Origin: Massilia sp. YIM B02443
GTDB lineage: Bacteria; Pseudomonadota; Gammaproteobacteria; Burkholderiales; Burkholderiaceae_D
Direction: 5' to 3'
Assembly (NCBI RefSeq): GCF_030411955.1
Contig: NZ_JASNRA010000015.1
Span: forward strand, 1-64,000
Length of the DNA: 64,000 nucleotides
A program made the position numbers and the translations under genes. The notes beneath the pieces are model-generated. The model made no database searches. It was not told the origin of the DNA and worked only from the letters and a program-made list of their open reading frames with translations. This document shows, piece by piece, positions 11,192 through 15,489 of this stretch (positions within the stretch are counted from its first letter, which is position 1; each line of letters starts with the position of its first letter).

Positions 11192-12793
11192 ATGAACCAG
11201 GAGACAAAACAGGTATCACCACGCGCCGCCGGCGCCACGATCAAGGCCGCCGTGCTGGCTGCGCTGATCGCCCTCCCGCTCGGCGCCTTCGCCCAGAACC
11301 GCGCCATCGACGTCGACGTCAAGCAGGTGCAAGGCCCGCTCGACCGCATGTTCAACCTGTCGGTCGGCGCCGGCCGCGCCAACGAAGGCCTGCGCGCCGA
11401 CTGGCAGCAGCAGCTGGCCGAGATCAAGCGCGACGCCGGCTTTCGCTACATCCGCTTCCACGGTCTCCTGACCGACGACATGGGCGTGTTCAAGATCGAC
11501 GCCCAGGGCAAGGAACAGTACAACTTCCAGTACATCGACGCACTGTTCGACTATTTGCTGAGCATCGACGTCAAGCCGTTCGTGGAACTGGGCTTCATGC
11601 CGAGCGCGATCGCCAGCGGCGCCAAGACCATCTTCTGGTGGAAGGGTAACGTCACGCCGCCGAAGGACTACGCGCAGTGGAGCCGCCTGGTCACTGCGCT
11701 TGCCAGGCACTGGACCGAGCGTTACGGCCGTGAAGAAGTCGCCAAGTGGTACTTCGAAGTCTGGAACGAGCCGAACCTAGACGGGTTCTGGGCCGGCACC
11801 CAGGACGAGTACTTCAAGCTGTATGCCCACGCGGCGCGCGCGGTAAAAGGCGTGGATCCCTCGTACCGCGTGGGCGGTCCTGCCACCGCCGGCGCGGCCT
11901 GGATTCCCGAGATGATCGCGTTCGCCGACAAGAACAAGGTGCCGCTCGACTTCGTCAGTACCCACTCGTACGGCGTCGGCCAGGGCTTCCTGGACGAATT
12001 CGGTACTCATGGTACGGTGCTGAACAAGGACGACATGGCGGTGGCCAGCGATGTGTTCAAGAACCGCAGGGAAATCGGCGCCTCCGCTATGCCGAAGCTC
12101 GAACTGCACTACACCGAGTGGAGCTCGTCGTACACGCCGGCCGACCCGACCCACGACAGCTATCACCAGGCGGCCTACATTCTCAAGAAGCTCAAGCAAA
12201 GCAGCGGCGCGGTGCAGTCGATGTCCTACTGGGTGTTCACCGACATCTTCGAGGAACCGGGTCCGCGCTTCGAAGCCTTCCATGGCGGGTTCGGGTTGAT
12301 GAATACGCAGGGGATCAAGAAGCCGGGCTACTTTGCTTATCAGTTCATGAACCAGCTGGGCGCAACGGAGCTGAAGAATGTCGACAAGGATTCGTATGCC
12401 ACGCTCGACGAGCGTGGCGGGGCCCAGGTGCTGCTATGGGATTACACGCATACGCTGCCGGAGAAGACCAATAACCAGCAATTCTTCATCAAGGACCTGC
12501 CCCCGAAATCCAAGGGCACGGCTCAGGTGACGATGCGCGGCTTGAAACCGGGCGCGTACACCATGATCGTGTCGCAGGTCGGGTACAAGCAGAACGATGC
12601 GTTCACGGCGTATATCGGGATGGGGTCGCCCAAGCAGCTAACGCGCAACCAGGTCGCTACGCTGAAAGCGCAGGCCACCGGCAAACCGTCGCAGCAGAAG
12701 ACGGTGCAGGTCGGCACCGACGGCAAGTTCAGCACCGCGCTGCCGCTGCGTGAGAACGATGTCTATCTGCTGCAGCTGAACGCGTCAAAATAG
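11192..12793 (+). CDS. GH39 beta-xylosidase
   Basis: This 533-aa protein has an N-terminal hydrophobic signal (about residues 11-33, ending GAFAQ). The GH39 barrel carries the acid/base motif EVWNEPNLDGFW (Glu 193) and the nucleophile motif LHYTEWSSSY (Glu 309), followed by a beta-rich C-terminal domain (ALPLRENDVYLLQL near the end). The start at 11192 (MNQETK) has GAGAGAAGAAG just upstream; an ATG at 11141 lacks a site and would spoil the signal peptide. The family hydrolyses xylose from short beta-xylosides. Xyloglucan carries alpha-xylose, so this gene suggests that the locus also handles xylan fragments. The later part of the gene uses more mixed codons than its neighbours. Confidence 0.88.
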   Translation: MNQETKQVSPRAAGATIKAAVLAALIALPLGAFAQNRAIDVDVKQVQGPLDRMFNLSVGAGRANEGLRADWQQQLAEIKRDAGFRYIRFHGLLTDDMGVFKIDAQGKEQYNFQYIDALFDYLLSIDVKPFVELGFMPSAIASGAKTIFWWKGNVTPPKDYAQWSRLVTALARHWTERYGREEVAKWYFEVWNEPNLDGFWAGTQDEYFKLYAHAARAVKGVDPSYRVGGPATAGAAWIPEMIAFADKNKVPLDFVSTHSYGVGQGFLDEFGTHGTVLNKDDMAVASDVFKNRREIGASAMPKLELHYTEWSSSYTPADPTHDSYHQAAYILKKLKQSSGAVQSMSYWVFTDIFEEPGPRFEAFHGGFGLMNTQGIKKPGYFAYQFMNQLGATELKNVDKDSYATLDERGGAQVLLWDYTHTLPEKTNNQQFFIKDLPPKSKGTAQVTMRGLKPGAYTMIVSQVGYKQNDAFTAYIGMGSPKQLTRNQVATLKAQATGKPSQQKTVQVGTDGKFSTALPLRENDVYLLQLNASK

Positions 12794-12825
12794 TTACCAT
12801 TTTCGGTTGCTGCGATCTTCGAAAC

Positions 12826-12852
12826 CGTCATTCCCGCGAAGTCGCGAACCGA
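12826..12852. repeat. Degenerate copy of the REP-like TTCCCGCGAA palindrome
   Basis: CGTCATTCCCGCGAAGTCGCGAACC resembles the copy at 57506-57531 in its left half and loop, but the right arm is mutated (TCGCGAA instead of GCGGGAA). It is the most decayed of four copies in the window. Confidence 0.5.
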
Positions 12853-13181
12853 GGATTGTGCCGCAGCCACTGCGATGTGTGCTATTGAAAGTGCGGGCAA
12901 ACTTGGGTACGCGCCTGCGCGGGGAGTGACCGCAACCAGTGGGAATAATGACGGTCTTTGGGACAAGGCAGATATCTGCGTGATCGGCAGTTCGTGCAAG
13001 CTCCGGTCACCACCCCATCTTCTTGCGAGTAATACCGTCGGCATCTCCGCGTCTGCCGATGCTGCTTCACCCGCCAATGCTGCCCATGACCTGGTTCACA
13101 GCAAAACAGCGTTCTGATCCGCTTCTCTTCACCTTTCTCCAGGTTCGCAGCCATTTCCACATCGTTATACGCCATAGCGCT

Positions 13182-13209
13182 TTGTTTAATTTCTTCTTGG
13201 AAATATAAT
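13182..13209 (+). promoter_or_regulatory. Sigma-70-like promoter of the caspase-like cassette
   Basis: TTGTTT (13182-13187), 16-base spacer, TATAAT (13204-13209, perfect -10). Initiation near 13216 would leave a leader of about 23 bases before the ATG at 13239. This is one of the clearest promoters in the window and suggests constitutive expression of the two-gene unit. Confidence 0.6.
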
Positions 13210-13238
13210 AGCTGCTCTTCTCGACTACATCCCTAATA

Positions 13239-13961
13239 ATGCCAAGAAACCACGCCAACCGCGCCATCATCGTCCTGGAATGCCCCTGGGAGCTCGACGC
13301 GAGAGATGCGAATCGGAGCAGCGTGCTGCCGTTTCTCGAGGGTGTGGCCAAGCTTGCCGGAGACACTGATGTTTTGCATGCGAACTTCTACGATGAACTC
13401 AGCCTCATCCATGCGTACAATTTCCTGGCGAAATCGCGGCACAAGAATGCCATTATGTACATTGCCGCGCATGGCGCACATGGCCAAGTCGGCAACGTCG
13501 AATTGCTGAATATCTTTGCCGCGGCCCAAGTGATTGCAAAACAGTGCAATATTACGGGCGTATTGATTGGCTCTTGCTACGGCGGTGAATGCAGTACGAC
13601 ACTGGAGACAGGCATCCAGAGCAGCCAGCTGCGTTGGTGCGCAAGCTACGCGTCAAGCGCGAACTGGCTGCAAGGGACCCTGATCGACTGTGCGATCATC
13701 GAGTCGATGCTGGATTTGCCGTCGGCAGCGTACAAGAAAAGCGAGAAGATCATCGACCGACTCGCGTCTGCGCTCAGCCCGTTCTCCCCGAGCTATCCCA
13801 TTGGAGAAGACTACCAGGAGCAACCGGTATCGCTCCGAGACTCGCTTCAGTTCGTCATCCAGCCTGAGGGCAAAGGCCGGCGGGCGCGCAACGTCAGCCA
13901 GGAGATTTTCGACGTGCACGCGCAGTTCCAGCTCGGCAGCGATGAAGGGGACGACAGTTGA
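13239..13961 (+). CDS. Caspase-fold (clan CD peptidase-like) protein of unknown function
   Basis: This 240-aa protein has no signal peptide or membrane segment. The core shows alternating hydrophobic strands with a His-Gly dyad after one strand (AIMYIAAHGAHG, His 78) and a Cys after the next (ITGVLIGSCYGGE, Cys 113), then a strand and helix, RWCASYASSANWLQG. Strand-HG, strand-S/A-C, in this order and spacing, is the hallmark of clan CD peptidases (caspase-like and CHAT). The assignment rests on this pattern only; I recognise no specific family. Two tracts (residues 205-240) are charged and probably flexible. The gene has its own promoter, and its stop overlaps the TTG start of the next gene. 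Codon use and GC are lower than in the flanking glycosidase genes, suggesting transfer. Confidence 0.6.
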   Translation: MPRNHANRAIIVLECPWELDARDANRSSVLPFLEGVAKLAGDTDVLHANFYDELSLIHAYNFLAKSRHKNAIMYIAAHGAHGQVGNVELLNIFAAAQVIAKQCNITGVLIGSCYGGECSTTLETGIQSSQLRWCASYASSANWLQGTLIDCAIIESMLDLPSAAYKKSEKIIDRLASALSPFSPSYPIGEDYQEQPVSLRDSLQFVIQPEGKGRRARNVSQEIFDVHAQFQLGSDEGDDS

Positions 13962-14347
13962 CGCGGGTACTGATCGTAGCGCTTGGAGCGGCGTCAACAC
14001 CGCTGATGGAGGCATGTCAGGTCGCTGGCGAACTCGCTGACCGGTCAATGATTGCGTTTCAAGAAATCGCCCTCGACACGCAAGCCGCGCTGAACGCGCC
14101 GATTCCACCATCATTCGCCCTTTCCTGGATTTTCGTCGAACGATCCGCGCTCGATGATCCGGCATTGCACGCATGCCAGCAGCGATTGAGCCGTTTTGCC
14201 CCAGTGACCATTGCCGTTCATGTATTGGAAAACGAACCTGCCCTGGTTCCAGACTTGCCGTTCAAGGGCAGCGCGATTCTACAGCCTTACAGCGACACGA
14301 CATTTCCCTTGGTCGCCAGCTTGATACGAAGCTTTGCAGCCAAGTAA
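13958..14347 (+). CDS. Small partner protein coupled to the caspase-like gene, function unknown
   Basis: This 129-aa protein starts at a TTG that overlaps the preceding TGA (TTGA), with AAGGGG about 8 bases upstream, so it is almost certainly translated by coupling. It has an alpha/beta look: strand VLIVALG, helix, strand SMIAFQEIALDTQAAL, strand FALSWIFVE, helix, strand APVTIAVHVLENEPAL. The order loosely recalls the N-terminal half of the FtsZ/tubulin fold, where IAVNTDAQAL and a TVAVVT strand occur. However, the glycine-rich nucleotide loop (GGGTG) is absent and the protein is far too short, so I treat this as a lead only. It ends 59 bases before the convergent CE2 gene. Its tight link with the caspase-like protein suggests a regulator, substrate or inhibitor. 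Confidence 0.6.
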   Translation: MTRVLIVALGAASTPLMEACQVAGELADRSMIAFQEIALDTQAALNAPIPPSFALSWIFVERSALDDPALHACQQRLSRFAPVTIAVHVLENEPALVPDLPFKGSAILQPYSDTTFPLVASLIRSFAAK

Positions 14348-14406
14348 GGAGGCGCGGCCGAGCCAAGCATCAGCCGGCCCGGAACAAGCAATCGCTCGCT
14401 TCAGGC

Positions 14407-15489
14407 TCACCAGCTCATCTTCTTCCGGATCATCGCGCTCAGGATTTCCGCATTCGCCTGATGATGCTTGACCCGGGGGTGCTGGCCATAACCGGTAAAC
14501 GGGAAGAACACGGTGTCGATCCGGGTGTCGCCCTTCTCCCACAGATTCTTCACAGCAGTTCGAATGTATCCCGGCCATGGCGAGCCTTCCTTGGTCGCTT
14601 CCATGCTGCCCAGCGCGCACACGATGTACGCCTTCGGATACAGGCTGCGGATCCGCGCCACGAACTTCTGGTACGCCGCAACGCGCTGCGCATCGTCCGG
14701 CTCCGGCTGCAGCTTGTGATCGCGCCCGATCAGCCACGAGTCGTTCTGCATCAGGTTGATCACCACCACGTCCGGCGTCCACTTCGAGAATTCCCACTTG
14801 CTGTCGTTGTCGCCGACCGCATTCGACTGGTCATAAAAATCCGGCATGGTGAACGGGAACCAGCTGATCATCACCCCGATCCCGCTCTGCGAGGTGATGT
14901 GCGCCTCGGCCTTCAGTGCGCGCGCCGTGATCGACGCATACGACATGTACGCGTTCTTGTCCTTGGCCAGGTCGTCGCGGCCATCGTCGGGCGCCTCGTT
15001 GCCCATGCCGCTGGTGATCGAGTCGCCGAAGAATTCAATGCGGCGTGACGGCCGCGCCGGCGGCGGCAGCAGTTCGGCCTTGTCGTCCAGCTCCAGGCCT
15101 TTGAAGACCGTTGGCCCTTCCGCGCCTTCGGTGCGCTTGAAGATCCGGAAGCTGTGCTCACCCGGCGCCAGGCCGTTGGCGACCACGTACGTCTTTGTGC
15201 CCTTGTCGGCCTGCAGGATGATCGGCCGCTCGGTCTCGCCGTCCAGGAACACGTTAAAGAAATTTTGCCCGCGCTCGTCGTCCAGCACGATCGCCAGCGA
15301 GGTGCCGCTGAAGCGGCCGCTGATCTCGGTGCCGGCAAAGCTCAGGGTCGGTCCCCTGGCGTAGCTGCTGTCGATGCGGCCCGTGTACTGCAGGTGCTTG
15401 TGATCCGGCGCGATGGTGGTGGCCGCCGGCGCCGGCGCCAGATGTAGCAGGCCGGCCAGCGCCAGGCCGAATGCGAATGAAGTTTTCAT
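14407..15489 (-). CDS. CE2-like SGNH acetyl esterase (probable xyloglucan/xylan deacetylase)
   Basis: This 360-aa secreted protein has a signal peptide (residues 1-23, ending APA). An N-terminal beta-sandwich (about 30-140) is followed by an SGNH hydrolase domain with block I IEFFGDSITSGMG (nucleophile Ser), a conserved Asn in VVVINLMQND, and a C-terminal His in YGQHPRVKHH. Jelly roll plus SGNH is the CE2 acetyl-xylan-esterase layout. GAGGG precedes the ATG. The gene lies downstream of GH31 on the same strand, separated by a terminator-like hairpin, so expression may depend on read-through or a local promoter. Removing O-acetyl groups from galactosyl or xylosyl side chains would open xyloglucan to GH35 and GH31. 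The substrate is inferred from context. Confidence 0.82.
   Translation of the reverse strand: MKTSFAFGLALAGLLHLAPAPAATTIAPDHKHLQYTGRIDSSYARGPTLSFAGTEISGRFSGTSLAIVLDDERGQNFFNVFLDGETERPIILQADKGTKTYVVANGLAPGEHSFRIFKRTEGAEGPTVFKGLELDDKAELLPPPARPSRRIEFFGDSITSGMGNEAPDDGRDDLAKDKNAYMSYASITARALKAEAHITSQSGIGVMISWFPFTMPDFYDQSNAVGDNDSKWEFSKWTPDVVVINLMQNDSWLIGRDHKLQPEPDDAQRVAAYQKFVARIRSLYPKAYIVCALGSMEATKEGSPWPGYIRTAVKNLWEKGDTRIDTVFFPFTGYGQHPRVKHHQANAEILSAMIRKKMSW

Follow-up and report, generated by a model that had tools for sequence, protein, structure and literature searches.

An unnamed family of caspase-like proteins with a stand-alone and apparently mobile lifestyle in Pseudomonadota

The first of two overlapping genes in a 64,000-nucleotide stretch of the Massilia sp. 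YIM B02443 genome (contig NZ_JASNRA010000015.1; hereafter, the window) encodes a member of a real family of caspase-like proteins, whose assignment to the caspase superfamily is well supported. The family is unnamed but of a known enzyme kind, and it has a stand-alone, mobile lifestyle for which other stand-alone caspase-like genes provide some precedent, whereas the second gene looks, from its distribution, like a chance companion of the first and not a conserved partner (Table 1). Our preferred reading, to which we assign a probability of roughly 0.55, is that gene 1 encodes a mobile stand-alone caspase-superfamily (clan CD) cysteine protease serving as an inducible effector of phage defense or cell death. 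We infer its protease activity, trigger, target, and defense role, which would be as follows. The gene 1 product would be a small single-domain cysteine protease acting inside the cell through a His78/Cys113 dyad; it would be kept low or inactive beforehand and be switched on by phage infection or DNA damage, and the activated protease would then cleave cellular or phage proteins, so that growth stops. Where a WYL-WCX regulator adjoins gene 1, this regulator probably sets its expression; the window copy would operate without such an adjacent regulator, sharing its 1.6-kb segment with gene 2 as an unrelated second cargo gene.

Table 1. Positions of the two genes and of associated sequence features in the window.
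Feature	Position	Strand	Remarks
Gene 1	13239..13961	+	240 aa, ATG start; caspase-fold (clan CD-like) cysteine protease candidate, unnamed family
Gene 1 putative catalytic codons	His78, 13470-13472; Cys113, 13575-13577	+	
Gene 2	13958..14347	+	129 aa, TTG start; low-confidence alpha/beta prediction
Putative promoter, TTGTTT-N16-TATAAT	13182..13209	+	Read from sequence; perfect -10, poor -35
REP-like repeat	12822..12959	unspecified	One of many in the own genome (G000)
Low-GC segment, 1613 bp	12794..14406	unspecified	Lies between two convergent enzyme genes

Inspection of the sequence confirmed the gene coordinates and the TTG/stop overlap reported in an earlier note on this locus: both reading frames are intact, and the TTG start of gene 2 overlaps the TGA stop of gene 1 as TTGA. 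Both frames also stand beyond chance, gene 1 having dozens of homologs with invariant residues and gene 2 having two homologs in other genomes. The lower GC content claimed for the pair was reproduced as well, at 57.4% for gene 1 and 56.4% for gene 2, whereas three enzyme genes on the flanks have 61.8%, 63.3%, and 62.8%, in a window of 65.4% GC; from their naming in the earlier note and their sequence appearance, we take the two enzyme genes flanking the pair to be a glycosidase-type and an esterase-type gene. The same note had credited the pair with a strong promoter of its own. The two hexamers do exist at the spacing described and the -10 element is perfect, but the -35 element agrees with the consensus at only 3/6 positions (manual count), and a sigma-70 scan of positions 12794-14450, which needs at least 4/6 per hexamer, reported zero sites, leaving the element in place without the strength ascribed to it. 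By eye, a clear ribosome-binding site is absent from gene 1 in the window, and many of its homologs differ in this regard. The REP-like repeat described beside the pair is real, with at least 46 further match rows for the 445-bp upstream region in the own genome, mostly through ~12822-12959 (40 of 95 candidates were scored, and some match rows overlap each other). A search of Rfam over 12700-14500 gave no match.

To characterize gene 1, we aligned its homologs with the window protein (30 rows, window included), to which they show identities down to 20%. Glu14, Tyr74, His78, Gly79, Cys113, Trp133, and Tyr137 are invariant in 30/30 rows, none of the homologs being without the two putative catalytic residues. 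An AlphaFold2 model, calculated from an alignment of 10 sequences, reached a pLDDT of 85.6 and a pTM of 0.86, and it places His78 just past strand 70-76 and Cys113 just past strand 105-110, in agreement with the alignment and with the earlier description of both residues as following strands (in YIAAHG and VLIGSC, respectively). Foldseek searches with this model returned SAVED-CHAT 8tl0 as the top match (E 3e-5), followed by CED-3 and caspase-3; in the first rows the TM-scores lie between 0.40 and 0.54 and the rmsd values between 5.3 and 9.1. With VIA-align, SAVED-CHAT 8tl0 gave a Z of 13.2 over 176 aligned residues, C11 proteases from Bacteroides and Parabacteroides gave Z values of 11.3 and 10.9 over 185-190 residues, and caspases, caspase-3 included, ranged from 10.2 to 11.0, with the caspase-8/c-FLIP complex and caspase-7 at 11.0. 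The caspase fold proposed for this protein is thus matched by its predicted structure in both programs.

Profile comparisons with hhalign, using 14 CHAT and 18 Peptidase_C14 domains, all from the same genus, aligned His78 with the conserved His of the HG motif and Cys113 with the conserved Cys of the AC motif in both families, with P 0.0025 and a probability of 12% for CHAT, and P 3.6e-4 and a probability of 37% over 73 columns for Peptidase_C14; control profiles gave P 0.22 (WYL) and 0.29 (gene 2). Because these hhalign probabilities are low, the case for a caspase-like protein rests on the fold, the invariant dyad, and the motif alignment jointly. As expected of clan CD, gene 1 is predicted to adopt a caspase-type alpha/beta fold and has a His-then-Cys order that is conserved in its homologs. 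We consider it highly improbable that the protein is a caspase fold now devoid of protease function, acting as a scaffold or in ligand binding, or that it is a secreted antibacterial effector. In an excerpt of PMC7159879, about 70% of the caspase domains that take the effector position in vWA-MoxR systems are described as inactive, and VIA-align also matched the gene 1 model to 9qpe, a complex of type VI secretion (Z 11.0), but a dyad kept in every aligned row is unexpected for an inactive family, and no recurring candidate immunity gene is present among the 25 neighbor groups listed.

The earlier note recognized no described family in this locus, and this holds against Pfam, NCBIfam, and PADLOC for the window proteins and 30 gene 1 members alike. 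Both window proteins matched 0 families in these three databases at E up to 10 and had no match in PHROGs. The 30 members gave no credible match to Pfam, NCBIfam, or PADLOC either, only scattered weak ones at E up to 1. The best of these strays, each from one member, had E values of 0.0028 (PADLOC), 0.0031 (NCBIfam), and 0.023 (Pfam, to Peptidase_C13, which is another clan CD family); the Pfam strays are spread over 11 families, and the best strays of the databases lie at E 0.003-0.05. Searching the PDB by sequence yielded a best E of 0.66, to an unrelated protein. Judging by titles and the openings of abstracts, the open-licence papers retrieved on WYL, Thoeris, CHAT, and caspase-like proteins of bacteria do not seem to describe the gene 1 family either.

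Comparison with known systems helps to place the family. Gene 1 resembles CHAT proteins (PF12770; SAVED-CHAT, TPR-CHAT) in its best structural match and in the alignment of the His-Gly and x-Cys motifs, but it carries no SAVED, TPR, or other sensor fused to it, and CHAT is matched by 0/30 members at E up to 1. Borvo, a one-gene CHAT system, is an earlier example of a caspase-like defense protein that stands alone. According to excerpts of PMC10952713, CHAT proteases occur in defense systems and Borvo is a CHAT-type protease in anti-phage defense. In Pfam terms Borvo is a CHAT member, and gene 1, which has no Pfam CHAT match, is set apart from it by description. TPR-CHAT, in turn, is reported together with a CRISPR complex in PMC9729208. 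With the bacterial caspase homologs of Peptidase_C14 (PF00656), gene 1 shares the caspase fold and the order of the dyad, but 0/30 members match this family at E up to 1, and the invariant Asp that C14 proteins carry two residues before the Cys is Gly or Ser in the gene 1 family. C11 proteases, which the titles of structure entries describe as secreted, also match in fold, but gene 1 is shorter and has no Pfam C11 match. Caspase-like peptidases are included in vWA-MoxR systems and may occasionally be stand-alone genes, as stated in an excerpt of PMC7159879. In the sources considered, bacterial caspase-like immune proteases are mostly tied to a sensor, as in SAVED-CHAT, TPR-CHAT, proteases responding to a TIR-made signal, and vWA-MoxR. 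The novelty lies in an unnamed family whose dyad is invariant and which travels with no recurring sensor or substrate gene among the 25 neighbor groups listed, some of its members lying next to a WYL regulator. This raises the testable question of how the activity of such an enzyme would be regulated and which substrates it would cut.

We then considered gene 2 and the proposal that the two genes form a conserved cassette. A gene 2 profile search of the larger loci found gene 2 adjoining gene 1 in 0/33 other gene 1 loci (one of them containing a gene 1 fragment; flanks examined ranged from 0.2 to 10 kb), the profile matching nothing beyond the window copy and the two relatives already known. 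Within the genus, gene 2 occurs in 2/62 genomes, those of the window and of G005 (contig C15), and a family sample of 245 genomes added one more relative (G115:C32). Each of these relatives lies in another island, with gene 1 not nearby. The G005 relative shares 8 nt with the gene of a WYL regulator and is 3 bp from a NERD-helicase gene; in G115 it is ~2.6 kb from a NERD-helicase gene, with no WYL gene within the 19 kb examined. Plasmids gave no gene 2 relative, and three weak matches (E 0.007-0.009) were dropped, as each has stops inside. The search for conserved gene pairs in other genomes therefore did not support the cassette as a conserved unit: among the loci examined, the pairing is confined to the window, and relatives of gene 2 occur without gene 1.

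Since gene 2 stands next to gene 1 only in the window and has its relatives in other islands, it is unlikely to be an obligate partner. A true two-component module, in which a protease is combined with an inhibitor, a substrate, or a sensor, would fit the TTGA overlap, suggestive of translational coupling, the location of both genes in the same low-GC segment, and the presence of relatives of both in the same Massilia NERD-WYL hotspot (see below), albeit in different genomes. We nonetheless hold such a module to be quite improbable, given the lack of gene 2 at the other gene 1 loci, the occurrence of its relatives without gene 1 in both other genomes, and the overlap of the G005 relative with a WYL gene instead. 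Close coupling of a gene pair in a single genome hence need not signal a conserved module. The gene 2 model had low confidence (pLDDT 65.3), and Foldseek gave it E values of 0.008 or worse, with scattered Rossmann-like, flavodoxin-like, and receiver folds. Because the model is poor and these matches are weak, we claim no function for gene 2, and identification with a known inhibitor was rejected on the same poor model and weak, scattered fold matches.

Some neighborhoods of gene 1 homologs contain WYL regulators. Using a WYL profile, we located a WYL-WCX regulator within 2.3 kb of gene 1 in 8/32 loci (window included in the 32), from Pseudoalteromonas, Halomonas (two), Halopseudomonas (two), Pseudomonas, and Massilia (two). 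In one of the genomes (G038) the stop of the WYL gene shares 4 nt (ATGA) with the start of gene 1, and in Massilia Root335 the two genes lie 61 bp apart on the same strand. The remaining 24/32 loci have no WYL gene in the DNA examined; the window is among the copies with no WYL gene nearby and therefore does not show the regulator-adjacent arrangement of the BrxR/CapW type. Massilia timonae and BSC265, with their WYL gene ~8.5 kb away, were counted as misses. Left out of the 32 were L041 (whose contig starts 239 bp upstream), L056, L057, and L058 (fragments or cut copies), and L107; leaving out L056 and L057 does not favor the WYL claim, because both have a WYL ORF nearby. If each 5-Mb genome is taken to contain 10 WYL genes and the loci to be independent, the chance of 8/32 is 1.3e-9, a value to be read with the two near-identical Halopseudomonas loci in mind, as these are not independent; the own genome, of 5.7 Mb, contains 3 WYL matches.

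Clustering of the neighboring ORFs, in a ranking that disregards gene 1 itself and ORFs antisense to it, singled out the WYL-WCX regulator as the family common to the most genus labels (four) among the 25 groups listed. Three other groups carried three labels each and are apparently of widespread types, namely a LysR-like and a short-chain dehydrogenase group (both by appearance) and an EAL group (by annotation), and no recurring sensor, substrate, or partner gene emerged among the 25 groups. The neighbor ORFs were the longest ORFs weighted by codon-position GC, with some wrong frames among them; 119 of the 142 listed were scanned, and repeat loci of the same place (L001, L002, and others) were not counted twice. 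Among the families listed for these 119 ORFs, as raw counts without a random-locus baseline, Pfam gave WYL (8), UvrD_C_2 (5), N6_Mtase (3), Dynamin_N (2), and NERD (2), and PADLOC gave WYL (9), MTase_I, GajB, NERD+UvrD, and mad2. Neighbors at some loci include type I methylases, dynamins, a TIR protein, NERD-UvrD proteins, and, by appearance, McrBC. With regard to gasdermins, gene 2 has no Pfam family, its fold search was made on the low-confidence model, and no gasdermin family is matched by at least 2 of the 119 neighbors among the families listed. Separately, related genes lie beside the gene 1 homologs of a Pseudomonas plasmid (L030:11462-12910) and of Halopseudomonas (L042:7802-9139), and two neighbor ORFs, probably these same genes, match ADP-ribosylglycohydrolase in Pfam.

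The WYL, methylase, dynamin, TIR, and NERD-UvrD neighbors make a role of gene 1 in a conflict system plausible. The regulators near gene 1 share WYL and WCX domains with the BrxR/CapW regulators of defense loci, and an excerpt of PMC9122601 states that about half of the BrxR-family WYL regulators adjoin defense systems. More tentatively, the regulator and gene 1 may constitute a minimal immune module, in which the WYL-WCX protein would sense damaged or single-stranded DNA and infection would derepress a sensor-free single-domain caspase that brings about death or arrest of the cell; copies standing alone, that of the window among them, would be the same effector under other promoters.

A different source of activation could be a TIR-signaling system like type IV Thoeris, with gene 1 as its effector and the TIR product made elsewhere. 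In excerpts of PMC12847820, the type IV Thoeris effector is a bacterial caspase-like immune protease activated by N7-cADPR, a likeness to gene 1 that is by description only, and one gene 1 homolog, from Candidatus Methylumidiphilus, has a TIR gene (Pfam TIR_2; L034:8971-10053) 1.26 kb downstream. We give this possibility quite little credence. The two Thoeris genes share one operon, whereas gene 1 has no recurring TIR gene and the coupled gene 2 has no Pfam match; among the Pfam families listed, none of the TIR type is matched by 2 or more of the 119 neighbor ORFs; and a single-sequence search with the L034 TIR protein found no relative in the other loci, a weak test in view of the diversity of TIR domains.

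The distribution of gene 1 is patchy. It occurs in 9/62 genus genomes (own included), with identities of 25-59% outside the own copy, and on 3 plasmids of Vibrio and Pseudomonas; a more distant relative, found with another member as query, is carried by a Rhizobium plasmid. A scan of 84,980 species genomes located 27 gene 1 loci, 24 of them near full length, including 5 already known Massilia copies, with carriers that include Halomonas, Halopseudomonas, Dickeya, Shewanella, Pseudoalteromonas, Leclercia, Silvania, and Marichromatium. Members range from 218 to 273 aa. In broader samples, for which only some first-look candidates were scored per genome and the counts are hence lower bounds, gene 1 proved rare, being found in at least 5/343 genomes of the family (profile A1), all five within the genus, 3/369 of the class (profile A3; the own genome, one other, and one 38-aa stretch), and at least 1/398 of the phylum, the own one. 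The 38-aa match was dropped, as it contains a stop, and other carriers in the genus were possibly not drawn into the 343-genome family sample. Phage records and viral contigs contained no gene 1 relatives.

In a midpoint-rooted tree, the Marichromatium copy is nested among the Halomonas copies on starred branches, and the positions of gene 1 differ mostly between genomes. These data suggest that gene 1 is a stand-alone accessory gene of Pseudomonadota that appears to move horizontally. Several copies do stand alone amid housekeeping-looking genes (Dickeya, Leclercia/Silvania; by appearance), and those of Leclercia and Silvania occupy a common position, as judged by appearance and shared neighbors. 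Together with the response of WYL regulators to DNA damage as well, described in excerpts of PMC10693628 and PMC11804915, this would suit an active protease that has no link to phage and works in the stress response or housekeeping of its host, its gene being a niche-adaptive accessory. We regard that alternative as unlikely but worth keeping in mind; it fits poorly with the patchy distribution, the mostly differing positions, the plasmid copies, and the defense-type genes near some copies. Short gene 1 fragments, perhaps decayed copies, were observed in Marinobacter (L057:6971-7144) and Pseudomonas (L058:7001-7090). The spacing of genes around the Vibrio parahaemolyticus plasmid copy had raised the suspicion that it stems from an integron cassette, an idea discarded when no clear attC was visible by eye.

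The presumed insertion in the window can be compared with one relative. The glycosidase-type and esterase-type genes, separated by 1613 bp in the window, are 99 bp apart in G044, a relative without a gene 1 match. The esterase-type gene is present in 34 other genomes of the genus; 29 of these were examined, with flanks of up to 1.5 kb, and only G044 has the glycosidase-type gene within that distance, so the empty-site comparison rests on this one genome. The low GC content and patchy distribution favor gain in the window over loss in G044. At the ends of the insert there are only short repeats and no convincing target duplication.

Relatives of both window genes are also cargo of a hotspot, a variable interval that in five Massilia genomes is bordered by a NERD-helicase gene on one side and a WYL gene on the other. 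In Root335 it contains gene 1 together with the gene of a 576-aa protein; in M. timonae and BSC265 it contains gene 1 among several genes over ~10 kb, some of them dynamin-type; and in G005:C15 it contains a gene 2 relative alone. In the own genome the hotspot is empty (G000:C11, L067:4538-7224), its NERD-helicase and WYL genes being convergent and 20 bp apart with nothing between, and the window genes are sited elsewhere. On another contig of the own genome (G000:C15, L066:6907-12104), a WYL gene is followed by a large ATPase gene, presumably of the BrxC/PglY type from its appearance, and the own genome may thus have another defense island.
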